Source: Polaromonas sp. AER18D-145 (lineage in GTDB: Bacteria > Pseudomonadota > Gammaproteobacteria > Burkholderiales > Burkholderiaceae_C). From it: DNA of 64,000 bases. The stretch spans positions 1 through 64,000 of the forward strand of contig NZ_NBZV01000010.1 in the NCBI RefSeq assembly GCF_002379095.1. The letters run 5' to 3'. A program made the position numbers and the translations under genes. The notes beneath the pieces were generated by a model. The model made no database searches and had not been told where the DNA came from. It saw only the letters and a list, made by a program, of their open reading frames with translations. Positions 49,320-62,919 of the stretch are shown one piece after another (the first letter of the stretch is position 1; every line of letters begins with the position of its first letter).

Positions 49320-49892
49320 CTAGATCCAGCCGAACCAGCCCAGCAGCGCGCCGGCCCCCAGCAGCCACAGCAAGTGCATGCGGGTGCGCCAGACAATCAG
49401 CGCCGTCACCACGGTCAGCAGCGCCACCGGCCAGTCTTTCTGGCTGGTGACGTTGGCGCTGGCGAGGATCCAGCCGGTGGCGATCAGCAGCGCAATCACG
49501 ATGGGCGCCATGCCCTGCTTGAAGGCGCGCACCCAGCGCAGGTTGCGGTTGCGGTGGCCCCAGCTGGCGGCCAGGTAGGTCAGCGTGGTGCTGGGCAGCA
49601 TGATGCCCAGCATGGTGACCAGCACGCCGAACAGGCCCAGCAGCGGGCCCCCCGCGTTCAGTCCCACCTGCCAGCCCATCAGCGCGACAAACAGCACGTT
49701 GGGTCCGGGCGCGGCCTGCGCAATCGCCACCGAGGCGTTGAACTGCGGATCGGTCAGCCAGTGCTGCCGGTCCACCAGGTAGCGGTGCATGTCGGGCGCG
49801 GTGGTGATGGCGCCGCCTATCGACAGCAGCGACAGCGACAGGAAATGCACAAACATGCCGAGCCAGTCGGTCCATTGCAGGTTCAGGCTCAT
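49320..49892 (-). CDS. Chromate transporter family protein, C-terminal-type half
   Basis: A 190-residue membrane protein with six hydrophobic segments, the half of a short-chain CHR transporter pair. It carries GGAITTAPDMHRYLV and the loop AQAAPGPNVLFVALMG, the family motif. It overlaps the first-half gene by four bases (ATGA), so the two are made as one unit and probably form a heterodimer. CHR proteins export or import chromate; sulfate is another candidate. Confidence 0.88.
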   Translation of the reverse strand: MSLNLQWTDWLGMFVHFLSLSLLSIGGAITTAPDMHRYLVDRQHWLTDPQFNASVAIAQAAPGPNVLFVALMGWQVGLNAGGPLLGLFGVLVTMLGIMLPSTTLTYLAASWGHRNRNLRWVRAFKQGMAPIVIALLIATGWILASANVTSQKDWPVALLTVVTALIVWRTRMHLLWLLGAGALLGWFGWI

Positions 49893-50473
49893 GGCGCGAG
49901 CTTGCGGAAGGTCAGGGTGCAGGCCAGCCCGCCGAGGCCGAGCAGCACATAAGCCAGCGGCAGGCGCAGCAAGGCGATGGCGGCAAAACACGCCACGGCC
50001 AGGGCAATGCAGACCGGCAGCCCCAGCGGGTGGGTTTTCAGCGCGCCCATGAGTTTGAGGCCGGTGGCGGCAATCAGGCCCGCGGCCACCGCCCCCATGC
50101 CGCGCAGGGCGCCGGCCACGCCGGGGTTGCCGGCGAACTGCGCGTACACCAGCGCCAGCAGCAACACCACCAGCAGCGGCACCGCCAGCATGCCGGCCAG
50201 GGCCACCATGGCGCCGCGCAGGCCGAAGTAGCGGTGACCGATCATCAGCGAGAGGTTGACGACGTTGGGCCCGGGCATGATTTGCGCGACGGCCCATTCC
50301 TCGACAAACTCCTCGCGCGTCATCCAGCGTTTTTTCTCGACCAGTTCACGCTGCACGACGGCCAGCACACCGCCGAAACCCTGCAGCGCCAGCAGGGTGA
50401 AGGAGACAAACAGGTCGGTCAGGGACTGGGGCTGCGGGCGGGTGGCTTTTTCTGGGCCGGGCGGTGCATTCAT
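49889..50473 (-). CDS. Chromate transporter family protein, N-terminal-type half
   Basis: A 194-residue membrane protein, the first half of the split CHR transporter. The motif LQGFGGVLAVVQRELVE and the loop AQIMPGPNVVNLSLMIG are the family signature. The Pro/Gln-rich N-terminus of about 20 residues is cytosolic. Paired with the next gene by a four-base overlap. Confidence 0.88.
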   Translation of the reverse strand: MNAPPGPEKATRPQPQSLTDLFVSFTLLALQGFGGVLAVVQRELVEKKRWMTREEFVEEWAVAQIMPGPNVVNLSLMIGHRYFGLRGAMVALAGMLAVPLLVVLLLALVYAQFAGNPGVAGALRGMGAVAAGLIAATGLKLMGALKTHPLGLPVCIALAVACFAAIALLRLPLAYVLLGLGGLACTLTFRKLAP

Positions 50474-51390: not shown

Positions 51391-52338
51391 TCACAGCCGC
51401 AGTTCCCAGGTCTCGCCGACCAGGTCTTTGCCGAAGCCGGTGTAGGGCTCGCTTTTGACCAGCTTGAAGCCGCGCCTGGCGTACAGGGCGCGCGCGCTGT
51501 CCAGGCAGCTGTTGGTCCAGAGCACCATTTTTTTGTAGCCCTTGCCGCGCGCAAAGGCCAGGCATTCATCGGTCAGGCGTGCGCCCAGCCCCAGCCCGCG
51601 GGCCTGCGGCGTCAGGATCAGCAGGCGCAGCTGCGCCACGGTTTTGGACTTGCGCACGACAAACACCGAACCGACCCGCTCGCCGTCGACCTCGGCGATC
51701 CAGCAGCGTTCCCAGTCGGGCTGGTGCTGGCACACATAACCGGCGACGATCTCCGCCACCAGCGCTTCGAAGGTGTTGTCCCAGCCGTACTCGCGGGCGT
51801 AGACCTCGCCATGCTGCTGCACCACCCAGCCCATGTCGCCGGGCTGCGGGTCGCGCAGCACCACGTTTTGGGGGGCGGGGGAAGCGTCAGATGCCAGCAG
51901 GCGCTGGACGGTGGCCAGCGCCTGAGTCAGTTGCTGCTGCGCCGGCCTGGGCAGCGGTGCCAGCAGGGCGGCCGCCTCGTCGCGCGAGCGTTGTTGCAGC
52001 GGTGCAAACGCCTGGTGGCCGGCCTCGGTGAGTTGCAGCAGGCTTTGCCGGGCATCAGCGGGCGAGGGCATGCGGGCCATCCATCCTTGAGCCTCGAAAC
52101 GACGCAGGATGCGGCTGAGGTAGCCCGCATCCAGCGCGAGGTCGCGGCCCAGCTCGGTGGCCGTGGGCTGGTCGCGATGCGCCAGTTCGTACAACACACG
52201 CACCTCCGTCAATGAAAACTCGCTGCCCAGGTAAGGGGCCAGCACGCCGATGCGCTGGGTGTAGAAGCGATTGAAGCGGCGAACCGCCTTGACGTGAGCG
52301 GCGGAGACGGTAGCGGTACTCGGTGTCATGGAAGCCAT
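51391..52338 (-). CDS. MarR regulator fused to a GNAT acetyltransferase
   Basis: A 315-residue fusion. Residues about 30-145 are a MarR winged-helix domain (SLTEVRVLYELAHRDQPTAT, DAGYLSRILRRFEAQGWMAR), and about 158-315 are a GNAT acyltransferase domain with acetyl-CoA motif ARGLGLGARL. Fusions of this type are known in several bacteria. The ATG at 52338 comes nine bases after a perfect palindrome (52347-52371), probably its own operator. It is the first gene of a minus-strand run ending in the chromate genes, with the EamA gene 16 bases downstream. Confidence 0.88.
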   Translation of the reverse strand: MASMTPSTATVSAAHVKAVRRFNRFYTQRIGVLAPYLGSEFSLTEVRVLYELAHRDQPTATELGRDLALDAGYLSRILRRFEAQGWMARMPSPADARQSLLQLTEAGHQAFAPLQQRSRDEAAALLAPLPRPAQQQLTQALATVQRLLASDASPAPQNVVLRDPQPGDMGWVVQQHGEVYAREYGWDNTFEALVAEIVAGYVCQHQPDWERCWIAEVDGERVGSVFVVRKSKTVAQLRLLILTPQARGLGLGARLTDECLAFARGKGYKKMVLWTNSCLDSARALYARRGFKLVKSEPYTGFGKDLVGETWELRL

Positions 52339-52393: not shown

Positions 52394-52864
52394 TTAGCCC
52401 CCGTCGCCGCGGCTGATCAGGGTACGCAGGATCTTCTTCAGGGTCGTGACGTCACGTTCGCTGAAGTCCTGCAAGAGCGACGTTTCGTGCGCCTTGGCCT
52501 GGGCCAGCAGTGCGGCCACGGTGGCACGGCCCTGTTCGGTCTCGAACACCAGCGTGCGGCGTGCGTCGGCCGGGTCTTCGCCGCGCCGCACCCAGCCGGC
52601 TTTCTCCATGCGCTGCACGAGTTTGGTCAGCGTCGGTTGCTGGGCCAGGATCTCGCGCGCGAGTTCGCCAATCGTCAGGCCGTCACCGTCCGACAAGGTG
52701 GCCAGCAGCCGCCATTCCAGCTGGCTCAAACCGGCGGCCTGGACTAGGGCGTGGAATTCGCTGTACACGGTGTGGCTGGCCCGCGCGAGCAGGTAGGACA
52801 GGTAGCCGTCGATGAAACGACCCTCGGCCGCTGGGGCAGCGGCCGGTTTGCGGGAGCGGCTCAT
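52394..52864 (-). CDS. MarR-family transcriptional regulator
   Basis: A 156-residue regulator (start at 52864, residue 21 of a longer open frame) with a winged helix of MarR type: FHALVQAAGLSQLEWRLLAT, GLTIGELAREILAQQPTLTK, DARRTLVFETEQGRA. It is divergent from the flavin reductase and its catabolic genes, so it most likely senses the substrate of that pathway. Start choice: the internal ATG has more typical family length, and the upstream codons overlap the divergent promoter region. Confidence 0.85.
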   Translation of the reverse strand: MSRSRKPAAAPAAEGRFIDGYLSYLLARASHTVYSEFHALVQAAGLSQLEWRLLATLSDGDGLTIGELAREILAQQPTLTKLVQRMEKAGWVRRGEDPADARRTLVFETEQGRATVAALLAQAKAHETSLLQDFSERDVTTLKKILRTLISRGDGG

Positions 52865-52912
52865 GGGGGGCCTCGCGAAACAGGAGGCCGGGTGGATGCG
52901 CTTGCGTATTGC

Positions 52913-52924
52913 ATGAATATTCAT
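52913..52924. promoter_or_regulatory. Palindrome in the divergent MarR/flavin reductase region
   Basis: ATGAATATTCAT is a perfect 12-base palindrome between the MarR gene and the flavin reductase. It is a plausible MarR operator controlling both. It lies 15 bases before the reductase ATG at 52939. Confidence 0.6.
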
Positions 52925-52938
52925 ATATTATGCGACGA

Positions 52939-53472
52939 ATGAATGCTGCCCTGCAAGCCACCCCGGGTTCCGATGCCCTTGTTCCCGCTGCGGCGCCGGA
53001 CAGCCGGGCCCTGCGCATCGCGCTGGGCCAGTTCGCCACCGGCATCACGGTGGTGACCACCCGTGCCAGCAACAGTGCCTTTGTCGGGCTCACGGTCAAT
53101 TCGTTTTCGGCGCTGTCGCTGGAGCCGCCGCTGATCCTCTGGTCACTGCGCTGCAGTTCGCCCAGCCTGCCGGTCTTCGAGGCGGTTGATCGTTTTGTTG
53201 TCAACGTGCTGGCCGAAGCCCAGGTGGAGGTGTCACGCCGTTTTGCCTTGCCGCAGGACGACAAGTTCGAGGGGGTGGCGCATGCGGAAAACGCCTGGGG
53301 CCTGCCGCTCTTGCATGGCGCCAGTGCCTGGTTTGAATGCCGCACGGTGTCGCGGCAAATCGCCGGCGACCATTGTCTGTTCATTGCCGAAGTCGAGCGT
53401 TTCACGCTGTCCGAGGCTGCGCCGCTCCTGTTTCATGCCGGCGGGTATTTCGCGCTCGGCTCACGCCTTTAG
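52939..53472 (+). CDS. Flavin reductase (HpaC-like), NAD(P)H:FMN/FAD
   Basis: A 177-residue flavin reductase-like protein. The pattern LGQFATGITVVTTRA, GLTVNSFSALSLEPPLILWSL and RQIAGDHCLFIAEVERF is that of HpaC-type small components that supply free reduced flavin to a monooxygenase. The start at 52939 was set just after the palindrome; an alternative at 52909 would overlap it. No oxygenase of the usual HpaB type follows, so its partner is unclear; it may be the acyl-CoA-dehydrogenase-fold protein at 55346 or an enzyme elsewhere. Confidence 0.85.
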   Translation: MNAALQATPGSDALVPAAAPDSRALRIALGQFATGITVVTTRASNSAFVGLTVNSFSALSLEPPLILWSLRCSSPSLPVFEAVDRFVVNVLAEAQVEVSRRFALPQDDKFEGVAHAENAWGLPLLHGASAWFECRTVSRQIAGDHCLFIAEVERFTLSEAAPLLFHAGGYFALGSRL

Positions 53473-53491
53473 CCTTTAAGAAAGAGTTTTC

Positions 53492-54538
53492 ATGCTGCAG
53501 GAACGAATTGAAGCCAAATGGATTGACTGCTTCGCCGAGACTTTTGCGCTGTGTGGCGTCAAGGCCGGCGACAGCGCGGCCATTCTCTCCGAGACGCAGT
53601 CGCGGCCGGTCAATGTGCAGCTCGCCGAGCTTGCGCTGGCGCGCCTCGGCGCGCGGGCCTTTCACCTGGTGCTGAGCACACCCCGGCTGGCCGCGCCGGT
53701 GCCGGTGCGCTCGACCGGCGCCTCGGACGCCATCGGCCAGCTCGCGCCGGTCGTGCAGGCCCTCGCAGCCAGCACCTTTGTGGCCGACCTGACGGTGGAA
53801 GGCCTGCTGCATGCGGCCGAGCTGCCCGACATTCTGAAGGGCGGCGCGCGCGTGCTCATGGTGTCCAACGAACACCCCGAAATCCTCGAGCGCTGCCTGC
53901 CCGATCCCGTGCTCGAACCCAAGGTCAAGGCCGGCATCAAGCTGCTGCGCAGCGCCAAGGCCATGCGTGTGACTTCGCAGGCGGGCACCGACCTGGCCAT
54001 TTCGCTGGTCGGGGCGCAGGCCGGTGGCGGCTGGGGTTACACGGCCCGGCCCGGCACCATCTCGCACTGGCCGGGCGGTCTGTGCCTGGCCTTTCCGGCC
54101 CGGGGCAGCGTCAACGGACGGCTGGTGCTGGCCCCCGGCGATGTCAACCTGACCTTCAAGCGTTACCTCGAACAAGCCGTGGTGCTGACGATTGAAAACG
54201 ACTTCGTGACCGACATTGCCGGCCAGCATGTCGACGCCGACCTGATGCGCAGCTACTGGGCTGCCTGGGGCGACCGCGAAGCCTACGCCGTCTCGCATGT
54301 GGGCTGGGGCATGAACCCCAAGGCGCACTGGGATGCGATGGCCCTGTACGACAAGAAGGACTTCAACGGCACCGAGCTGCGCGCCTTCGCCGGCAACTTC
54401 CTGTACTCGACAGGCGCCAACGAGGTGGCGGGGCGCCATACCTTGGGGCACTTCGATCTGCCGCTGCGCGGCTGCACCGTGGCGCTGGACGGTCAGGTGA
54501 TCGTGGACGCCGGGCAATTGACCGGCGAGCTGGCCTGA
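53492..54538 (+). CDS. NicX-like ring-cleaving dioxygenase (M29-type fold)
   Basis: A 348-residue protein that resembles 2,5-dihydroxypyridine 5,6-dioxygenase (NicX), whose fold is related to M29 aminopeptidases. The Fe(II) ligands reported for NicX line up with H269 in SHVGWGMNPK and H320 and D322 in GHFDLPLRGC. The middle (GGGWGYTARPGTISHWPGG) also fits. These enzymes open a hydroxylated ring with O2. The genes around it lack the nicotinate hydroxylase, maleamate amidase and maleate isomerase of the nic pathway, so the substrate is probably a different one. An M29 peptidase role is the main alternative. Confidence 0.72.
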   Translation: MLQERIEAKWIDCFAETFALCGVKAGDSAAILSETQSRPVNVQLAELALARLGARAFHLVLSTPRLAAPVPVRSTGASDAIGQLAPVVQALAASTFVADLTVEGLLHAAELPDILKGGARVLMVSNEHPEILERCLPDPVLEPKVKAGIKLLRSAKAMRVTSQAGTDLAISLVGAQAGGGWGYTARPGTISHWPGGLCLAFPARGSVNGRLVLAPGDVNLTFKRYLEQAVVLTIENDFVTDIAGQHVDADLMRSYWAAWGDREAYAVSHVGWGMNPKAHWDAMALYDKKDFNGTELRAFAGNFLYSTGANEVAGRHTLGHFDLPLRGCTVALDGQVIVDAGQLTGELA

Positions 54539-54541
54539 GCC

Positions 54542-55324
54542 ATGGCGATGCCGGCCTATCTCGAACAAGGTGAGGGCGACACCGCCGTGTTCCTGCTGCA
54601 CGGCGTGGGTGGCGGCAAGGAAGCCTGGGCACACAACCAGCCGGTGTTGGCGAGCCAGGACTTCAGGACGGTGGCCTGGGACATGCCGGGTTATGGCGCA
54701 TCAGCGCCCCTGTCGCCATGCACCAACGCGCTGCTGGCCGATGCCTTGAAAACCCTGATCGAGCATGTGGGCGCCAGGCGCAACGTGCTGCTCGGCCACA
54801 GCATGGGCGGCATGATTGCGCAGGAGCTGGCGGCCCTGCATCCCGCGCTGGTGCATGGCTTGATTCTCTACAGCACCTCGCCGGCTTTCGGCAAGGCCGA
54901 TGGCGCTTGGCAACAGCAGTTCTTGCAGAGCCGTTTTGCGCCGCTGGACCAGGGGCTGGGCATGGCAGGCCTCGCCCACAAACTGGTGCCGACCATGTTC
55001 GCGCCCGACGCCGAGCCGGTGCGGATCGCCGAAGGCGCCGCGCTGATGGCCCGCGTCCCCGCGGAAAGTTACCGCGCCGCACTGTCGGCCATCGTGTCCT
55101 TCAACCGGCTGGCCGCGCTGGGCAACATTGCCGTGCCCACCCTGTGCCTGGCCGGTGAGCTGGACCTCAACGCGTCGCCCGCGGTGGTGGAAAAAATGGC
55201 CGGCCGCATCCCCGGCGCCGCCTATGTCTGCCTGCCGCAGGTGGGCCACATCGCCAACATCGAGCAGCCCGAGCTGTTCAACCACGCTGTCCTGACATTC
55301 CTGAAACAACACTTTTTGCCCTGA
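54542..55324 (+). CDS. Alpha/beta-hydrolase, possible ring-cleavage product hydrolase
   Basis: A 260-residue alpha/beta-hydrolase. The oxyanion loop is LLHGVGGGKEAW (about 18-30), the nucleophile S87 is in LLGHSMGGMI, and the later acid and base are in AGELDLNA and VGHIANIEQP. Directly after the NicX-like gene (three bases apart), it is likely to hydrolyse the product of ring opening, as the deformylase NicD does in nicotinate degradation. Specificity is inferred from context only. Confidence 0.83.
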   Translation: MAMPAYLEQGEGDTAVFLLHGVGGGKEAWAHNQPVLASQDFRTVAWDMPGYGASAPLSPCTNALLADALKTLIEHVGARRNVLLGHSMGGMIAQELAALHPALVHGLILYSTSPAFGKADGAWQQQFLQSRFAPLDQGLGMAGLAHKLVPTMFAPDAEPVRIAEGAALMARVPAESYRAALSAIVSFNRLAALGNIAVPTLCLAGELDLNASPAVVEKMAGRIPGAAYVCLPQVGHIANIEQPELFNHAVLTFLKQHFLP

Positions 55325-55345
55325 CCTGACCCGAGGAACCGACCC

Positions 55346-56632
55346 ATGTCTGCACTGCCTGTCTCCCCACCTCCTGCTGCCCGCTACCTGCCGCCGTCGA
55401 TCGCCGGCGACTACACCGAACTCACGCCCAAGCAGACCGAGCTGCTGGCGATTGCTGCCCGCCTCGGCCGCGAAAAATTCGCGCCGCGCGCGCAGCAGAT
55501 TGACCGCGATGCGGTGTTCCCCTTCGAGAACTACGCCGACCTGCGCGAAGCCGGCCTGCTCGGCATCTGTGTGCCCGAAGAAGACGGCGGCTGGGGCGCC
55601 GACTTTGCCACCTATGTGATGACCGCCGCCGAAATCGGCCGGCATTGCGGCGCCACCGCGCTGACGCTGAACATGCATGTGAGCTCCACCATGTGGACCG
55701 GCTTCATCGCCGACGACCTCGACATGACGCCCGAGCAGCGTGCCAACCACGAGGCCCACCGCAAGATCCATTACGAGCGCGTGGTGAAGCAGGGCAAGGT
55801 TTACTCGCAGCCTTTTTCCGAAGGTGGTGCCGCTGCCGCCGGCAAGGCGCCTTTCGGCACCCTGGCCCGAAAGGTTGACGGCGGCTACATCGTCAACGGC
55901 AAGAAGATTTTTGCCTCGCTGGCCGGCGCAGCCGACTACTACGGCATTTTGTGCACGCTGGACAAGCCGGGCGCGACCCAGCGCGATTCGCTGTACCTGG
56001 CGGTTGACAAAAATTCGGACGGTGTCAGCGTCACCGGCGACTGGGACCCGCTGGGCATGCGTGGCACGGTGTCGCGCACGCTGGTGTTCCAGGACGTGTT
56101 TGTGCCCGAGGTGGAACGCCTGATTCCCGAAGGCCTGTATGCCCAGGCTGCGCTGCGCTGGCCGCACATGTTTGCGACCTTGTCGCCGACCTACATGGGC
56201 ATTTGCCAGGCGGCCTACGACTTCACGGTGCAGTATTTGCGCGGCGAGGTGCCCGGCACACCACCGGTCAAGCGCCGCATGTACCCGACCAAACAGATCG
56301 CTGTTGCGGAAATGAAAGTCCGGCTGGAGCAGACGCGCGCGATTTTTTTGCAGAATGCCCGTGCCGCCCGCGTCGATCCTTCCAAGGAAATCCGGCTCGG
56401 GCTGTATGCGGCCCACTACACCATCATGGAAAACGCCAACGAGATCTGCCGCCTGGCGGTGCGCACCTGCGGCGGCCAGTCCATGCTCAAGAGCCTGCCG
56501 CTGGAGCGCATGTACCGCGACTCGCGTTGCGGCTCGCTGATGCTGCCGTGGACCGCTGAACTCTGCATCGACCGGCTCGGGCGCGAATGCCTGTACGAGG
56601 CCGGTGAACAGGACGAACAGGCTGTGCTGTAA
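55346..56632 (+). CDS. Acyl-CoA dehydrogenase family protein
   Basis: A 428-residue FAD enzyme of the acyl-CoA dehydrogenase fold. It has the N-terminal helical domain (ADLREAGLLGICVPEEDGG), the beta domain (GYIVNGKKIFASLAGAADYY, GMRGTVSRTLVFQDVFVPE), and a C-terminal LERMYRDSRCGSLMLPWTAE whose Glu aligns with the GTNEI catalytic base of the family. An insertion of about 35 residues (about 125-165) is unusual. Its fold is also that of group D flavin monooxygenases, so oxygenase activity with the flavin reductase is possible, but the conserved base favours dehydrogenation. Confidence 0.82.
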   Translation: MSALPVSPPPAARYLPPSIAGDYTELTPKQTELLAIAARLGREKFAPRAQQIDRDAVFPFENYADLREAGLLGICVPEEDGGWGADFATYVMTAAEIGRHCGATALTLNMHVSSTMWTGFIADDLDMTPEQRANHEAHRKIHYERVVKQGKVYSQPFSEGGAAAAGKAPFGTLARKVDGGYIVNGKKIFASLAGAADYYGILCTLDKPGATQRDSLYLAVDKNSDGVSVTGDWDPLGMRGTVSRTLVFQDVFVPEVERLIPEGLYAQAALRWPHMFATLSPTYMGICQAAYDFTVQYLRGEVPGTPPVKRRMYPTKQIAVAEMKVRLEQTRAIFLQNARAARVDPSKEIRLGLYAAHYTIMENANEICRLAVRTCGGQSMLKSLPLERMYRDSRCGSLMLPWTAELCIDRLGRECLYEAGEQDEQAVL

Positions 56633-56644
56633 GCCGGGATCGGA

Positions 56645-58117
56645 ATGAACCTCGCGCAGATCATCGAACGGCACGCGCAGTTCTCGCCGCAGCAGGTGGC
56701 AATCCACGCGGCAGGGGAAGACATCACCTATCCCGCCTTGTGGCAGCGCATCGAGTCTGCGACGCGCGTGCTGCTGGCGGCCGGCGTGCAGCCGGGCGAC
56801 CGGGTGGCCTGGCTGGGCTTCAATGATCCGGCCCTGCTGGTGCTGCTGTTTGCGCTGGCGCGTGTGGGCGCGATTCTGCTGCCGCTCAACCACCGCCTGG
56901 CCGCGCCCGAACACGCGGCGATTCTTGGACACGCGGGTGTGAGTCTGCTGGTCAGCGACAGCGTACACGCCGGCGCGGCTGGCGCGCTGGCGGCGACCCA
57001 GGGCTGCCGCTTGCTGCCTGCCGCCTGGCTGGCTGCGAATGGCGGCACCGGCAACGGCATCCTCGCGGGGGCGTATGCCTCGCCGGTGCTGCTGGTCTAC
57101 ACCTCGGGCACCACCGGCCGGCCCAAGGGCGCCTTGCACACGCAGTCCGGCCTGATCTGGAACTGCGTGATCTCCGCCCATGCGCATGAGCTCAGGCAGG
57201 ACGACCATGTGCTGAGTGTGCTACCCATGTTTCATGTCGGTGGCCTGTGTATCCAGACCCTGCCCGCCCTGCACGCTGGCGCAACGGTGACCCTGCATGC
57301 GCGTTTTGATGCCGGTGCGTGGCTGGCCGATGTCGCCAGGCGGCGGCCCACGCTGTCGCTGATGGTGCCGGCCACCTTGCGCGCGGTGCTGGACCATGCC
57401 GATTTTGCAGCTACCGATCTGTCTTCCCTGCGTTTTCTGGCAGCGGGCTCTTCCACCATTCCCGCATCGATGATCGCGGCCATCCATGCGCGCGGTGTGC
57501 CGCTTGGCCAGGTTTATGGCGCGACCGAAACCGGCCCGGTCTCCATCTACCTGCGCCGTGCCGATGCGATGCAACACGTCGGGGCGGCTGGCAAGGCCGG
57601 ATTGCATGTGGAAGTGAAACTCATCAACACGCGGGGTGAAACCGTGGCCCCGGGTGAGGTCGGCGAAATCTGGGTGCGTGCGCCCAATGTGATGTGCGGC
57701 TACTGGGCCGACGCCGGTAACCCGGCCTTTGCCAATGGCTGGTTTCATACTGGCGACCTGGCGCGCTGTGATGCCGCCGGGTTTTATGAAGTGGTAGGAC
57801 GCTCCAAAGACATGATCATCTCGGGCGGCGAAAACGTCTACCCGGCCGAGATTGAAAACCTGCTGGCCGATTGCCCGCAAATCCTGGAAGCCGCGGTGGT
57901 GGGCCAGCTAGACGCGCGCTGGGGCGAGGTGGTCGTCGCCGTCATTGTGAAAACGCCCGGCGCGGATCTCGATGCGGCGCAGGTGTTGCAGCTGTTCGAG
58001 GGCCGGCTCGCCCGCTTCAAGCACCCCAAACGTGTGTTGTTCTGCGAAGCCTTGCCCAAAACTGCGCTGGGCAAGGTGCAGAAAGCCGGCCTGCTGACCA
58101 ACCTCGAGGTTCAGTAA
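56645..58117 (+). CDS. Acyl-CoA synthetase (AMP-forming)
   Basis: A 490-residue class I adenylate-forming enzyme. The P-loop VYTSGTTGRPKGAL is at about 151-164, followed by QVYGATETGP (about 287-296), the hinge WFHTGDLARCD (about 364-374) and the C-terminal lysine in PKTALGKVQKA. It activates a carboxylic acid to its CoA thioester. As the last gene of the + strand operon it would feed the beta-oxidation enzymes encoded opposite. Its end overlaps that of the FadB gene by seven bases. Confidence 0.9.
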   Translation: MNLAQIIERHAQFSPQQVAIHAAGEDITYPALWQRIESATRVLLAAGVQPGDRVAWLGFNDPALLVLLFALARVGAILLPLNHRLAAPEHAAILGHAGVSLLVSDSVHAGAAGALAATQGCRLLPAAWLAANGGTGNGILAGAYASPVLLVYTSGTTGRPKGALHTQSGLIWNCVISAHAHELRQDDHVLSVLPMFHVGGLCIQTLPALHAGATVTLHARFDAGAWLADVARRRPTLSLMVPATLRAVLDHADFAATDLSSLRFLAAGSSTIPASMIAAIHARGVPLGQVYGATETGPVSIYLRRADAMQHVGAAGKAGLHVEVKLINTRGETVAPGEVGEIWVRAPNVMCGYWADAGNPAFANGWFHTGDLARCDAAGFYEVVGRSKDMIISGGENVYPAEIENLLADCPQILEAAVVGQLDARWGEVVVAVIVKTPGADLDAAQVLQLFEGRLARFKHPKRVLFCEALPKTALGKVQKAGLLTNLEVQ

Positions 58118-60312
58118 ACCGGTTGGTACTTTTTGATCGCGGCCTTGACCTCATCGCTGAGCACAAAACCCGGGCCATACTGGGCAGCCAGTTCGCCGGC
58201 GCGCTGCACAAACGCGTCCACGCCCATGCTGTAGATGAACTGCATCGCGCCGCCGGTCCAGGCAGGAAAGCCGATGCCGAAGATGGAGCCGATGTTGGCG
58301 TCGTGCACGCTGGTCAGCACGTTTTCGCTGAGGCAACGCGCGGTTTCCACGGCCTGGCGGTACAGCAGCCGGTCCTTGAGGTCGGTGATGGCCCAGGCCG
58401 TGCCGGGCTTTTCGAACAGGGGCTTGAGTTCGGGCCACAGGGTTTTCTTCGCGCCTTTTTCCTCGGGGTAGTCGTAGAAGCCGGCGCCCGCGGCCCGGCC
58501 ATTGCGGTCGAACTCCTTGACCATGCGCTCGACGATCAACTCGCCCGGCGTGGCGATGTAGGTCTTGCCTTCGGCCACATAGTCGGCGCGGGTCTGGTCC
58601 AGCACATGCACGCTCAGTGACAGCGCGGTTTCGTCGAGCACGGCGAGCGGGCCCACCGGCATGCCGCACTGGATGCCGGCGTTTTCAATCGCCGCCGCAG
58701 GAATGCCTTCGCCCAACATGGCCGCGCCTTCCATCACAAAGGTGCCGAAAGTGCGGCTGGTGTAAAAGCCGCGCGAGTCGTTCACCACAATCGGAATCTT
58801 GCCGAGGGCCTGCACGTAGTCGAAGGCACGCGCCACGGTGTCATCGTCGGTCTGCTTGCCGCGGATGATCTCGACCAGTTTCATCTTGTCGACCGGGCTG
58901 AAAAAGTGGATGCCGATGAACTTGTCCGGATGCGCGCTGGCCGTGGCCAGCCCGCTGATCGGCAGAGTGGAGGTGTTGGACGCAAAAAAGCCGCCGGGCG
59001 CCAGCAACGGCTCGGCTTCCTGCGTGACCTTGGCTTTCAGGTCACGGCGTTCGAACACCGCTTCGATGATCAGCTCGCAGCCGGCCAGGTCGGCCACCTT
59101 GTCGGTGGCCTGGATGCGCGCGAGCAGCGCGGCCTGCTCCAGCGCACTCATGCGGCCCTTGTCCACGCGTGACTGCGTGAGTTTGGCGCTGTAGGCTTTG
59201 CCGGCGACAGCCTTGTCGTGGCTGACGTCCTTGAGCACGGTGCTGATGCCGCGGCTGGCCTGGGCGTAGGCAATGCCCGCGCCCATCATGCCGGCGCCGA
59301 GCAGGCCGACCTTTTGCGGCTTCCACTTTTCCGATCGTCCTGAGCCGCCTGTCCTGAGCTCCGTCGAAGGGGTCGAAGGGGTGGGACGCGAGCGGCCCGA
59401 CTTGATCGCGTTCATGTTGAAGAAGAAGGTGTTGATCATGTTCTTGGCCACAGGGCTGACGATCAGCCTGGCCAGGTAACGCGATTCGATGCGCAGCGCG
59501 GTGTCGAAATCGACCTGCGCGCCCTCGACCATGGCGGCCAGCGCGTATTCGGGAGCCGGGTACAGGCCGCGTGTTTTCTGCTTGAGCACGGCCGGCGCCA
59601 CGGCCAGCATGCCGGCGATCTTGGGGTTGGTCGGCGTGCCGCCAGGCATCTTGTAGTTCTTGTCGTCCCAGGGATGGTGCGCCGGGGCGGCGGCGCCATC
59701 ATGCGTCGCGATCCAGGCCAGCGCCGCAGGGCGCAGCGCGGCGGCATCCGGCACCAGCTCATGCACCAGGCCGAGTTCCAGCGCTTCATGCGGGTTGAAC
59801 AGCTTGCTTTCCAGAATATAAGGCTGCGCGCCCATCAGGCCGAGCAGCCGCGTCATCTTGGTGATGCCGCTGGCGCCGGGAATCAGGCCAAGCGTGATTT
59901 CGGGCAGGCCGAACTGGATCTTTTTGTCATCAACCGCGATGCGGTAATGACCGACCAGTGCCACTTCCCAGCCACCGCCGAGCGCCGTGCCGTTGAGGCA
60001 GCTGACCACCGGTTTGCCCAGGGTTTCCAGCGTGCGGAAGTTCTTCTTGGTCTGCTCGATTTCGTGGAAGACCTGGGGCGCGTCCGCGGCCTGAAGCCGC
60101 ATCGTGGCCTTGAGGTCGGCGCCGGCAAAGAAGGTGCTTTTGTTGGACGCCAGCACGATGCCGCGAATCACTTCCTTGTCTTTCACGACCTGTGCGGTGG
60201 CTTCGGTCAGGTCTTTCTGCCACTGCGCGCACATGGTGTTGACCGGTGAGCCTTCCTCATCGAAGGTGAGGGTGGCAATGCCGTCGGCCAGTTCGTATTG
60301 GATGGTTTTCAT
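58111..60312 (-). CDS. FadB/FadJ-type enoyl-CoA hydratase/3-hydroxyacyl-CoA dehydrogenase
   Basis: A 733-residue two-function enzyme. The crotonase part (1-~300) has AGADLKATMRLQ, NGTALGGGWEVAL and LPEITLGLIPGASG; the NAD domain begins at about 337 with VGLLGAGMMGAGIAYAQ, and the C-terminal domain has GFYTSRTFGTFVMEGAAMLGE. It works in fatty-acid or ring-derived acid beta-oxidation. The linker between the two parts (about residues 310-325) is coded by a degenerate REP copy. The start 60312 is chosen; in-frame codons further up belong to the REP in the gap. Confidence 0.92.
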   Translation of the reverse strand: MKTIQYELADGIATLTFDEEGSPVNTMCAQWQKDLTEATAQVVKDKEVIRGIVLASNKSTFFAGADLKATMRLQAADAPQVFHEIEQTKKNFRTLETLGKPVVSCLNGTALGGGWEVALVGHYRIAVDDKKIQFGLPEITLGLIPGASGITKMTRLLGLMGAQPYILESKLFNPHEALELGLVHELVPDAAALRPAALAWIATHDGAAAPAHHPWDDKNYKMPGGTPTNPKIAGMLAVAPAVLKQKTRGLYPAPEYALAAMVEGAQVDFDTALRIESRYLARLIVSPVAKNMINTFFFNMNAIKSGRSRPTPSTPSTELRTGGSGRSEKWKPQKVGLLGAGMMGAGIAYAQASRGISTVLKDVSHDKAVAGKAYSAKLTQSRVDKGRMSALEQAALLARIQATDKVADLAGCELIIEAVFERRDLKAKVTQEAEPLLAPGGFFASNTSTLPISGLATASAHPDKFIGIHFFSPVDKMKLVEIIRGKQTDDDTVARAFDYVQALGKIPIVVNDSRGFYTSRTFGTFVMEGAAMLGEGIPAAAIENAGIQCGMPVGPLAVLDETALSLSVHVLDQTRADYVAEGKTYIATPGELIVERMVKEFDRNGRAAGAGFYDYPEEKGAKKTLWPELKPLFEKPGTAWAITDLKDRLLYRQAVETARCLSENVLTSVHDANIGSIFGIGFPAWTGGAMQFIYSMGVDAFVQRAGELAAQYGPGFVLSDEVKAAIKKYQPVY
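59343..59385. repeat. Degenerate REP copy inside the FadB-type gene
   Basis: CCTGAGCCGCCTGTCCTGAG, then CTCCGTCGAAGGGGTCGAAG. It reads in frame in the linker (TPSTPSTELRTGGSG). It resembles the REP at 48289 and 60320. Confidence 0.5.
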
Positions 60313-60319
60313 TTCTTCT

Positions 60320-60392
60320 CCGTTCGCCCCGAGCTTGTCGAAGGGCATTTGCGATGTCTATGAAAGGGCTTCGACAAGCTCAGCCCGAACGG
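60320..60392. repeat. REP-like inverted repeat between thiolase and FadB-type genes
   Basis: CCGTTCGCCCCGAGCTTGTC and AAGGGC at 60320-60346 pair with GGGCTTCGACAAGCTCAGCC and CGAACGG at 60366-60392 across an 18-base spacer. It sits in the gap of the thiolase-fadB operon, where a stem-loop could affect mRNA stability. Confidence 0.75.
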
Positions 60393-60394
60393 CA

Positions 60395-61600
60395 TTAAAT
60401 TCTCTCGACAATCGTTGCAATGCCCATGCCGCCGCCCACACACAGCGTGGCCAGGCCGTAGCGCAGCTTGCGCCGGTGCAGCTCGTCGATCAGGGTGCCG
60501 AGGATCATGGCGCCGGTGGCGCCCAGCGGGTGGCCCATGGCGATCGCGCCGCCGTTGACGTTGACCTTGTCGTGCGGCACCTTCATCTCTTTCATGAAAC
60601 GCATCACCACCGCTGCAAAGGCTTCGTTGACTTCAAACAGGTCGATCTGGTCTATGCTCAAGCCGGCCTTGGCCAGCGCCTTGCGCGCTGCCGGCATGGG
60701 GCCGGTCAGCATGATGGTCGGGTCGGCACCGCTGAGTGCGGCCGCGACAATGCGGGCCCGCGGCGTGAGGCCATGGATTTTTCCGGCGGCTTCGGAGCCG
60801 ACTAGCACCGCTGCAGCACCATCCACGATGCCCGAGGAATTGCCGGCGTGGTGCACATGGTGGATGCGCTCGACCTGCGGGTAACGCGTCAGGGCCACCT
60901 GGTCAAAACCCATGCCGCCCATCTGTTCAAACGCCGGCCGGAGCGAGGCCAGGCCTTCCAGGGTGGTGTGCGGCTTGATGAATTCGTCCTGCGCCAGGAT
61001 GGTCTGGTCAAGAAAGTCTTTCACCGGCACAACCGAGCGGTCGAAATAGCCGGCTGCGCGGGCCTGGGTCGCGCGTTTCTGGCTCTCCAGTGCAAAAGCG
61101 TCGACATCGGCGCGGCTGAAACCTTCGATCGTGGCTATCAGGTCGGCACCTATGCCTTGCGGCACAAAGGCGGTGGCGCTGTTGGTCTCCGGGTCCTGTG
61201 CCCAGGCGCCGCCGTCCGAACCGATGGGCACGCGGCTCATGCTTTCGACGCCACCGGCCACCACCAGGTCTTCCCAGCCCGAACGCACCTTCTGCGCGGC
61301 CAGGTTCACGGCTTCCAGGCCGGAGGCGCAAAAACGGTTGATCTGCACGCCCGAGGCGCGGAAGTCCCAGCCGGCTTTCAGTGCGGCGACCTTGGCGATG
61401 ACGGAGCCCTGCTCGCCAATCGGCGAGACCACACCCATCACCACATCATCGACGTGCGCCGTGTCAAAGCCATTGCGGCGCTGCAGCTCGGTCAGCACGC
61501 CGGCCAGCAGGTTGACCGGCTTGACCTCGTACAGGCTGCCGTCCTTTTTGCCTTTGCCGCGCGGTGTACGGATGGCGTCGTAAATGAATGCTTCGGTCAT
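60395..61600 (-). CDS. Acetyl-CoA C-acyltransferase (thiolase)
   Basis: A 401-residue degradative thiolase. Active residues: C91 in [13 protein letters not shown]357 in [15 protein letters not shown], and C387 in CVGGGMGIA. It cleaves 3-ketoacyl-CoA to acetyl-CoA plus a shorter acyl-CoA, the last step of beta-oxidation. Upstream of the FadB-type gene on the same strand, so the pair forms a fadAB-like operon. Confidence 0.93.
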
Positions 61601-61749
61601 GGGGTGCTCCCGGGGTGGTTCATGGATCCCGGATCAGGTCCGGGACGACAGCGAAAGAGGCTTCGTGTGGAGTATATTCATTTCACCAAGCAAACGCTTT
61701 GCATAAATCAGCATCCCGCTGCCTTTTATTTCATCCAACAGGTGACCCG

Positions 61750-62919
61750 ATGATCGAACGCACACTCTTCAGCAGTGACCACGAGGCCTTTCGCGACAGC
61801 TTTCGCCGCTTCATGGACAAGGAAATTGCCCCTTTCCACGCGCAGTGGGAGGACCAGGGTTATGTGGACCGCGCGGTCTGGAACAAGGCCGGGGAAAACG
61901 GCTTCCTGTGCATGACCATGCCCGAGGAATACGGCGGTGCCGGCGCCGACAAGCTGTATTCCGTGGTGCAGATGGAAGAGCTCAGCACTGCGGGCTTCTC
62001 GGGCATTGGCTACGGCCTGCACAGCGAGATCGTGGCGCCTTACCTGCTGCATTACGGCACCGAGGCGCAGAAGAAAAAATACCTGCCCAAACTCGCCAGC
62101 GGCGAGATGGTGGGGGCGATTGCCATGAGCGAGCCGGCGGCCGGCTCCGATTTGCAGGGCGTCAAGTCCACGGCGATCCAGCAGGCCGACGGCAGCTACC
62201 TGCTCAATGGCAGCAAGACCTTCATCACCAACGGCTGGCATGCCGACCTGGTGATCGTGGTGGCCAAGACCAATCCCGCGGCCGGCGCCAAGGGCACCAG
62301 CCTGCTGCTGGTCGAACGCGGCATGCCCGGTTTTGCGGTGGGCAAACGCCTGAAAAAGCTGGGCTTGAAGGCGCAGGACACCTCGGAGCTGTTTTTTGAC
62401 AATGTGCGTGTTCCCGCGGAGAACCTGCTGGGTGGCGCGGTCCAGGAAAACCGTGGCTTTGTCTGCCTGATGGAACAACTGCCCTGGGAACGGCTGCAGA
62501 TCGCGATCGGTGCGGTCGCTGCGGCCCAGGCGGCGATCGGCTGGACGGTCGACTACGTGAAGGAGCGCAAGGTTTTCGGCCAGCCGGTGGCCAGCTACCA
62601 GAACACACGTTACACCCTGGCCGAACTGCAGACCGAAGTGCAGGTGGCACGCGTGTTTGTCGACAAATGCACCGAATTGCTCGCCGATGACAAGCTCGAC
62701 ACCGCAACGGCCAGCATGGCCAAGTACTGGTGCTCGGACCTGCAGTGCAAGGTGATGGACGAGTGTGTGCAGCTTTTCGGCGGCTACGGCTACATGTGGG
62801 AGTACCCGATCACCCGGGCCTATGCCGACGCACGTGTGCAGCGCATCTATGGCGGCACCAACGAGATCATGAAGGAAGTGATCACGCGGGCCATGGGCCT
62901 GGGTGCCAAGCCGTCCTGA
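61750..62919 (+). CDS. Acyl-CoA dehydrogenase
   Basis: A 389-residue flavin enzyme doing the first beta-oxidation step. The signature AIAMSEPAAGSDLQGVKS (about 120-137), GSKTFITNGWHADLVIV and the catalytic E372 in YGGTNEIMKEV are all present. The start at 61750 is set on the family N-terminus (ERTLFSSDHEAFRDSFRRF); the frame open upstream covers the promoter region. It is divergent from the thiolase, so the two may share control. Confidence 0.93.
   Translation: MIERTLFSSDHEAFRDSFRRFMDKEIAPFHAQWEDQGYVDRAVWNKAGENGFLCMTMPEEYGGAGADKLYSVVQMEELSTAGFSGIGYGLHSEIVAPYLLHYGTEAQKKKYLPKLASGEMVGAIAMSEPAAGSDLQGVKSTAIQQADGSYLLNGSKTFITNGWHADLVIVVAKTNPAAGAKGTSLLLVERGMPGFAVGKRLKKLGLKAQDTSELFFDNVRVPAENLLGGAVQENRGFVCLMEQLPWERLQIAIGAVAAAQAAIGWTVDYVKERKVFGQPVASYQNTRYTLAELQTEVQVARVFVDKCTELLADDKLDTATASMAKYWCSDLQCKVMDECVQLFGGYGYMWEYPITRAYADARVQRIYGGTNEIMKEVITRAMGLGAKPS

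Follow-up and report, generated by a model that had tools for sequence, protein, structure and literature searches.

What would an iron dioxygenase of the kind that opens a pyridine ring in nicotinate degradation be doing among genes that handle coenzyme A (CoA) esters? The question is raised by positions 52394-58117 of the window, by which we mean the whole stretch of 64,000 nucleotides analysed from Polaromonas sp. AER18D-145 (contig NZ_NBZV01000010.1; source genome of 4.82 Mb in 135 contigs). There, the listing of open reading frames (ORFs) shows a MarR gene and, divergent from it, a run of five plus-strand genes: a flavin reductase, a NicX-like Fe(II) dioxygenase, an alpha/beta hydrolase, a protein of the acyl-CoA dehydrogenase (ACAD) fold and an acyl-CoA ligase dependent on adenosine monophosphate (AMP). 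The gaps between genes inside the operon are 3-21 bp, and a convergent gene at 58111 closes the run. We hold with moderate confidence that this operon serves the aerobic breakdown of a carboxylic acid, either aromatic or N-heteroaromatic and perhaps of the arylacetic type. The AMP-dependent ligase would convert the acid to an acyl-CoA, the ACAD-fold protein, supplied with reduced flavin by the reductase, would hydroxylate the ring, which the NicX-like Fe(II) enzyme would then cut beside the new hydroxyl group, and the alpha/beta hydrolase would split the ring-opened product. The families and order of the genes, the iron ligands, the conserved linkage and the conserved operator-like site can be read from the sequences; the succession of the steps, a hydroxylation in place of a dehydrogenation, the cutting of the ring as such, a repressor role of the MarR and the type of acid are inferred from them. 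A limited search of the open literature, which is weak evidence of absence, found no description of the operon, and passages of PMC6449761 and PMC11434297 do not describe it.

The NicX-like dioxygenase and its substrate contacts

The putative ring-cleaving enzyme (53492..54538, plus strand, 348 residues) has no Pfam or NCBIfam match at E 0.01, while the families of the other operon products are confirmed. Its kinship appears with solved structures: NicX of Pseudomonas putida (PDB 7cn3) is matched over residues 12-343 (E 3.2e-58), and a 36-row profile run against PDB sequences has NicX as its sole match up to E 10. An AlphaFold model (pLDDT 89.7) superposes on 7cn3 with a Z of 46.4 over 341 residues, as compared with 21.6 over 307 residues on the M29 protein AmpT. 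The sequence-only reading had matched H269, H320 and D322 to the iron ligands of NicX. These are borne out as the counterparts of H265, H318 and D320, and S306 (NicX S302) now completes the set of four described for that enzyme (PMC7910607); the ligands are invariant across 36/36 aligned family members. An M29-type aminopeptidase or amidase would display a related fold (Z about 20-22 for AmpT, PepS and AmpS), and some relatives are indeed annotated 'peptidase M29' or 'leucyl aminopeptidase'. Yet the much higher Z to NicX, the invariant NicX ligands and the absence of the M29 family PF02073 from both the protein and the genome, in a search that was positive in 4/14 control genomes, make such an identity extremely improbable. 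The metallopeptidase, which the sequence-only reading had itself singled out as the placement to fear, was dropped on the structural comparison and the missing PF02073 match.

Sharing a fold and a metal site does not make the protein a NicX. In the structural study, the substrate contacts of NicX are E177, H189 and H105, Glu177 contacts N1 and O1 of 2,5-dihydroxypyridine, and activity beyond that compound is said never to have been reported (PMC7910607). The equivalents in the window protein are G180, H192 and H107. A single scan of named genome contigs provided the relatives for comparison, yielding 80 loci, the best 80 of at least 497 confirmed; within these, the closest named relatives are Polaromonas records, at 90-97% identity. 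In 29/29 rows of the clade (the window, 25 named loci and three plasmid loci) the Glu177 column holds G, V, S or T, while the iron ligands and the equivalents of His105 and His189 are invariant and that of Arg293 is kept too. In six comparison rows the same column holds Glu four times and Gln twice (the HpdF-like L109 and the HpaB-linked L111). The His105 contact is not strict, because Phe takes its place in 3/6 of these comparison rows, one of them from a nic cluster.

Could the protein then be one more dioxygenase for 2,5-dihydroxypyridine, its nicotinate or picolinate pathway having been rearranged? It is 36-39% identical to the NicX proteins of nic clusters and has the same ligands, which would agree with this, but Glu177 is lost, and a maximum-likelihood tree of 39 rows splits 30 window-type rows from five nic-cluster rows by a branch (100/98) of length 1.71; four ungrouped rows are left out of that count, and long branches make the placement of L109, L051_second, L111, L112 and L125 unsure. 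The partners differ as well. NicC, NicE and NicF have no match among the operon proteins, and the hydrolase shows a weak partial match to NicD (28% over 88 residues). Furthermore, the genus contains four matches at 37-38% that do have NicD, NicE and NicF as neighbours, and one of these genomes, G075, carries its true nic cluster on one contig and a window-type gene (60% identity) on another. A second enzyme for 2,5-dihydroxypyridine is thus very unlikely. By its sequence, the dioxygenase is a member of the NicX fold family that is not NicX, neither in its substrate contacts nor in its partners: it shares with the P. putida enzyme the fold, the four iron ligands and the equivalents of His105, His189 and Arg293, and departs from it (PMC7910607) in the replaced Glu177, the separate clade and the company of a CoA ligase, a flavin reductase and an ACAD-fold protein instead of NicC, NicD, NicE and NicF. 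Because Glu177 is lost in 29/29 clade rows and the operon has no nic partners, a different substrate, as the sequence-only reading had it, is likely. As a separate observation, a NicE (maleate-isomerase) homologue, 65% identical, lies on another contig of the source genome (G000:C43:37564-38313); queries with NicC, NicD, NicF, NicR, NicB and NicX returned nothing in the 18 kb around it.

Linkage with CoA enzymes across relatives

The link to CoA chemistry begins with the last gene of the run, the ligase (56645..58117, plus strand, 490 residues; Pfam AMP-binding E 2.3e-76, AMP-binding_C E 4.3e-17). Its association with the dioxygenase was counted in the 66 loci whose contigs extend 2.0 kb or more upstream and 4.7 kb or more downstream, 14/80 being dropped for short flanks. 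Within 6.5 kb of the NicX relative an ACAD-like gene is found in 56/66 loci, a ligase in 52/66 and a hydrolase in 57/66; all three are kept in 46/66. When Polaromonas, Pandoraea and Minwuia are each counted once, the ACAD-like gene remains in 33, the ligase in 30 and the hydrolase in 33 of 42 groups. Records that contain clade members bear the labels Beta-, Alpha- and Gammaproteobacteria and Acidimicrobiia, and the linkage of a NicX-type dioxygenase to a CoA ligase spans several classes. The same picture comes from the reverse direction: a search starting from the ACAD-like protein (E <= 1e-100) retrieved 6/274 genomes of the class, the source genome included, and the other five all carry a window-type NicX (56-65%); in four of them the two genes are direct neighbours or one gene apart on a shared contig, and in the fifth they lie on two separate contigs. 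The gene run described in the sequence-only reading is therefore in place and no accident of one genome. The fear that relatives would split the dioxygenase from the CoA genes did not materialize, and the junction of this ring-cleavage type with a CoA route is a stable one.

Several loci nevertheless pull against a fixed CoA module. The ligase is not near in 14/66 loci, and a group of Minwuia/Kordiimonadales loci (L068, L069, L072, L074) has none nearby, while the Minwuiaceae locus L047 has one. On Ensifer and Aminobacter plasmids, where the NicX relative is 55-57% and the ACAD-like protein 51% identical, the clusters contain a glutamine-synthetase-like gene and no annotated ligase; their flavin reductases are others, about 30% identical, and their hydrolase carries an N-terminal extension (Polyketide_cyc2 in Ensifer). 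Finally, a Dolichospermum plasmid typed conjugative (CP070234.1, L142 14989-16236) has a lone ACAD-like relative at 57.6%, and no NicX relative was found on that plasmid. The window-type NicX of G075 has as neighbours a hydrolase, a YCII protein and, where an ACAD-like protein would be expected, a class-A aromatic hydroxylase. The ACAD-like gene is missing from three further loci as well, L041, L044 and L046, where a canonical ACAD and genes for ABC transport stand beside the NicX relative; L046 has an AMP-ligase, and L041 and L046 have a beta-lactamase-family gene directly upstream (families were read in L041 and carried to the others by clustering). Use of CoA is thus not universal among relatives. 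Because of the Ensifer/Aminobacter and G075 variants, a hydroxylase, a NicX-like enzyme and a hydrolase seem to form the core, with the activating enzyme interchangeable. A sister clade that has lost the pyridine-reading Glu and keeps CoA-dependent partners suggests that NicX-type cleavage is used more widely than known.

Two side observations belong to these variants. In L068, L069, L072 and L074 the cluster is flanked by metallo-beta-lactamase and M81 (MlrC-type) metallopeptidase genes, with LIV-type transport genes (read in L072, by clustering in the other three). The Aminobacter plasmid NZ_CP015007.1 (L105 17701-18879) encodes a flavin reductase joined to a LysR ligand-binding domain, which parallels the fusions of reductase and MarR described below.

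Hydroxylase or dehydrogenase, and the class of substrate

The sequence-only reading had called the product of 55346..56632 (plus strand, 428 residues; Pfam Acyl-CoA_dh) an acyl-CoA dehydrogenase, a label that does not fit well. Aligned with three canonical ACADs, of which one comes from the window and the others from L041 and L046, this protein has Met275 where they carry a Glu in helix G, and it reads LMLPWT at their IYxGT motif, with Leu/Pro at the aligned position. Hence neither of the two usual positions, in helix G and in IYEGT, which we take to be those of the catalytic Glu, holds one, and M275 and LMLP are invariant in 31 rows. The top PDB sequence matches are 5z8t and 5gj7, at 188 bits, with dehydrogenases below at 134 or less; the first-ranked, 5z8t, is titled 'Flavin-containing monooxygenase'. 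The first gene of the run then supplies the expected partner. The flavin reductase (52939..53472, plus strand; Pfam Flavin_Reduct E 3e-39; start at 52939 judged by conservation, the longest ORF running from 52909) has as nearest solved structure 5zc2 (E 3.2e-34), the reductase of p-hydroxyphenylacetate 3-hydroxylase (HPAH). Two traits of group D two-component flavin monooxygenases, the ACAD fold and a partner flavin reductase, are accordingly present in the window. Three relatives (L054, L064, L140) have reductase and MarR fused into a single polypeptide, and that of L064 matches 5zc2 along its whole length (E 1.5e-52). The likeness to HPAH of Acinetobacter baumannii (PMC10816480) lies in a reductase with a MarR fused (the three relatives) or neighbouring (here) and in an oxygenase of the ACAD-domain class; unlike it, the window has MarR and reductase as separate genes and groups them with the CoA ligase and the NicX-like dioxygenase. 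The variants described above also speak for a hydroxylase: the Ensifer and Aminobacter versions are accompanied by flavin reductases of their own, and the neighbour of the NicX relative in G075 is an aromatic hydroxylase of class A.

The alternative is a true acyl-CoA dehydrogenase, which would oxidize a ring-opened or alicyclic CoA ester after NicX-type cleavage, the reductase serving something else. Several points weigh on its side: the protein comes closest in NCBIfam to dehydrogenases or other CoA-acting relatives (FadE16, AcrC); 5gj7, which aligns like 5z8t, is titled 'putative Acyl-CoA dehydrogenase'; the fold is that of ACADs, and the fold search, with a Z of about 40 to many true ACADs, does not separate the two activities; and a flavin reductase, found within 6 kb in 35/56 ACAD-like loci, was not found in the other 21/56. 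Because Glu is missing at both positions and an HPAH-type reductase sits in the same operon, a flavin hydroxylase fits better than a step of beta-oxidation, and a dehydrogenase seems unlikely, though it deserves serious consideration. For the ACAD-fold protein, these sequence comparisons favour the role of oxygenase in a two-component flavin hydroxylase. It follows that an alicyclic substrate, which the sequence-only reading had allowed beside a heteroaromatic one, becomes less likely; its observation is confirmed as a whole and its interpretation partly supported.

Which acid would such a hydroxylase attack? CoA-ester pathways for aromatic acids exist, such as that from 4-hydroxybenzoate to gentisate, which likewise combines a ligase, a hydroxylase of CoA esters, a hydrolase and a dioxygenase; the class of hydroxylase and the NicX-type dioxygenase are the differences. 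The alpha/beta hydrolase (54542..55324, plus strand, 260 residues; Pfam Abhydrolase_1 E 6.1e-29) could be a thioesterase, a deformylase or a C-C hydrolase; its best NCBIfam matches are of PcaD type, far under the cut-off, and its solved relatives are 3om8, BpoC and 2xua. In 4/80 loci (L036, L051, L052, L053), and in L143, a homologue of the salicylyl-CoA 5-hydroxylase / 2-aminobenzoyl-CoA monooxygenase type stands no more than about 6 kb away, and the one in L051 passes the PRK08255 cut-off; the five loci are not independent cases, because L036 and L143 share one island. The source genome has such a homologue too, on a different contig, with genes for a MarR, an enoyl-CoA hydratase, a benzoate-CoA-ligase-like protein, a thioesterase and a RidA-family protein next to it. 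This company suggests that the product may be an ortho-substituted benzoyl-CoA. Among 149 relatives, counted by hand, a PRK08255-type gene accompanies a window-type NicX (at least 60% identity, one partial) in 15/18, against 43/131 for the remainder; within the genus, taken as 89 genomes on the assumption that every handle below G089 belongs to it, the figures are 12/15 vs 39/74 (p 0.084). Because the signal falls within the genus, much of this co-occurrence may be kinship. The adjoining transporters were rejected as guides to the substrate, since their types change from lineage to lineage: L055 has a LIV-type binding protein, L066 and L139 have binding proteins of amino-acid type, L051 has a TctC receptor, and Ensifer/Aminobacter have an APC permease.

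A carbocyclic acid, of hydroxyphenylacetate or salicylate type, would be another answer, with the NicX-like enzyme cleaving a hydroquinone-like benzene ring in place of an N-heterocycle. The replacement of Glu177, which in NicX touches N1 and O1 of 2,5-dihydroxypyridine, would be in keeping with this, as would the HPAH type of the reductase and of the fused MarR, and the gentisate-dioxygenase-like and salicylyl-CoA-hydroxylase-like genes near some relatives. Against it, the iron ligands and the equivalents of H105, H189 and R293 are all kept in the clade, and the characterized enzymes of the family that we know of (NicX, Hpo, HpdF) all act on 2,5-dihydroxypyridine. We regard cleavage of a benzene ring as rather doubtful. 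It may be recorded here that in L051 (3400-5539) a second NicX relative, about 35% identical, adjoins a gentisate-dioxygenase-like cupin gene less than 5 kb from the window-type operon.

The MarR regulator, its palindrome and flanking genes

The MarR-family gene (52394..52924, minus strand; Pfam MarR E 1e-15) has a likely true start codon at 52864, as judged from conservation, and is adjoined by a gene for a MarR domain fused to a GNAT acetyltransferase domain (51391-52338, minus strand; Pfam). Between MarR and reductase, 20 bases (52912-52931) are invariant in 11/11 Polaromonas sequences, while their flanks vary. They enclose the perfect, operator-like palindrome ATGAATATTCAT (52913..52924), of which the 4.82 Mb genome has a single exact copy. 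Allowing two mismatches at most, the palindrome occurs near 39/42 loci with an adjacent, blastp-detectable relative of the window MarR, and near 0/38 without one. The palindrome-bearing loci form 17 groups and are not independent, Polaromonas (10) and Pandoraea (15) dominating. Of 198 shuffled palindromes of equal composition, the mean was 1.8/80 loci with a match; near-variants of the palindrome also score, because one shuffled palindrome reached 27/80. The control by MarR that had been proposed earlier thus gains sequence support. The acid, or a product of it, would bind the MarR, a putative repressor, release it from the palindrome and so open both promoters.

The nearest solved structures of this MarR are 3cdh (E 6.1e-28) and 7kfo (E 6.9e-27), with close copies; after a long gap come others, including IacR (7kua, 6.5e-8) and HpaR (7el2, 1.4e-7). 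Both leading structures are IadR proteins, which bind indole-3-acetate with sub-micromolar affinity through seven contacts, Y15, A18, S28, H32, W45, R46 and V65, according to their description (PMC9613470). The window protein keeps four of these contact residues, as Y41, H58, W71 and R72, and has Tyr54 at the place of S28, the residue reported there in IacR. In the 42 operon MarRs, picked by similarity to the window MarR and thereby favouring conserved residues, the equivalents of Y15, W45 and R46 are present in 42/42 and that of H32 in 37/42; the S28 place is taken by Ser 21 times, by Tyr 15 times and by another residue 6 times, the A18 place is Tyr in 40, and the V65 place is mixed. IadR is accordingly the closest solved kin, with five of seven contacts conserved or IacR-like. 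Two observations temper the comparison: A18 is replaced by Tyr and V65 by Glu, so that two of the seven contacts of IadR (PMC9613470) are not kept, and of three control MarRs two share none of the contacts, but the GNAT fusion shares Y, S and R, and lacks H and W. Because of both, the contacts do not name the ligand. From the kinship with IadR and the contacts that are kept, the inducer would probably belong to the aromatic acids, and perhaps to the arylacetic ones.

A bolder proposal can be drawn from this kinship, and we would give it only a small chance. The IadR-like MarR would sense auxin (indole-3-acetate) or a related benzo-heteroaryl acid; its CoA ester would be hydroxylated by the ACAD-fold protein, the N-ring opened by the NicX-type enzyme, and a 2-aminobenzoyl-type CoA ester passed to the salicylyl-/2-aminobenzoyl-CoA hydroxylase. 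Were this true, the operon would represent a further kind of aerobic indole-3-acetate degradation, and the glutamine-synthetase variant would serve the matching arylethylamine. No iac/iad-type Rieske oxygenase was found by Pfam among the six proteins of the operon region, the rest of the genome not having been searched for iac or iad genes. The pocket of the MarR and its single palindrome make the question of the substrate directly testable.

The surroundings of the operon complete the description. Downstream, a FadJ-like gene (58111-60348) and a thiolase gene (60395-61600), both on the minus strand, are followed by one for a canonical acyl-CoA dehydrogenase (61588-62919, plus strand; all by Pfam). 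Farther upstream, 49320-50473 (minus strand) holds a gene of the chromate transporter family (49889-50473; Pfam) and then an overlapping ORF that, by eye, resembles its second half.

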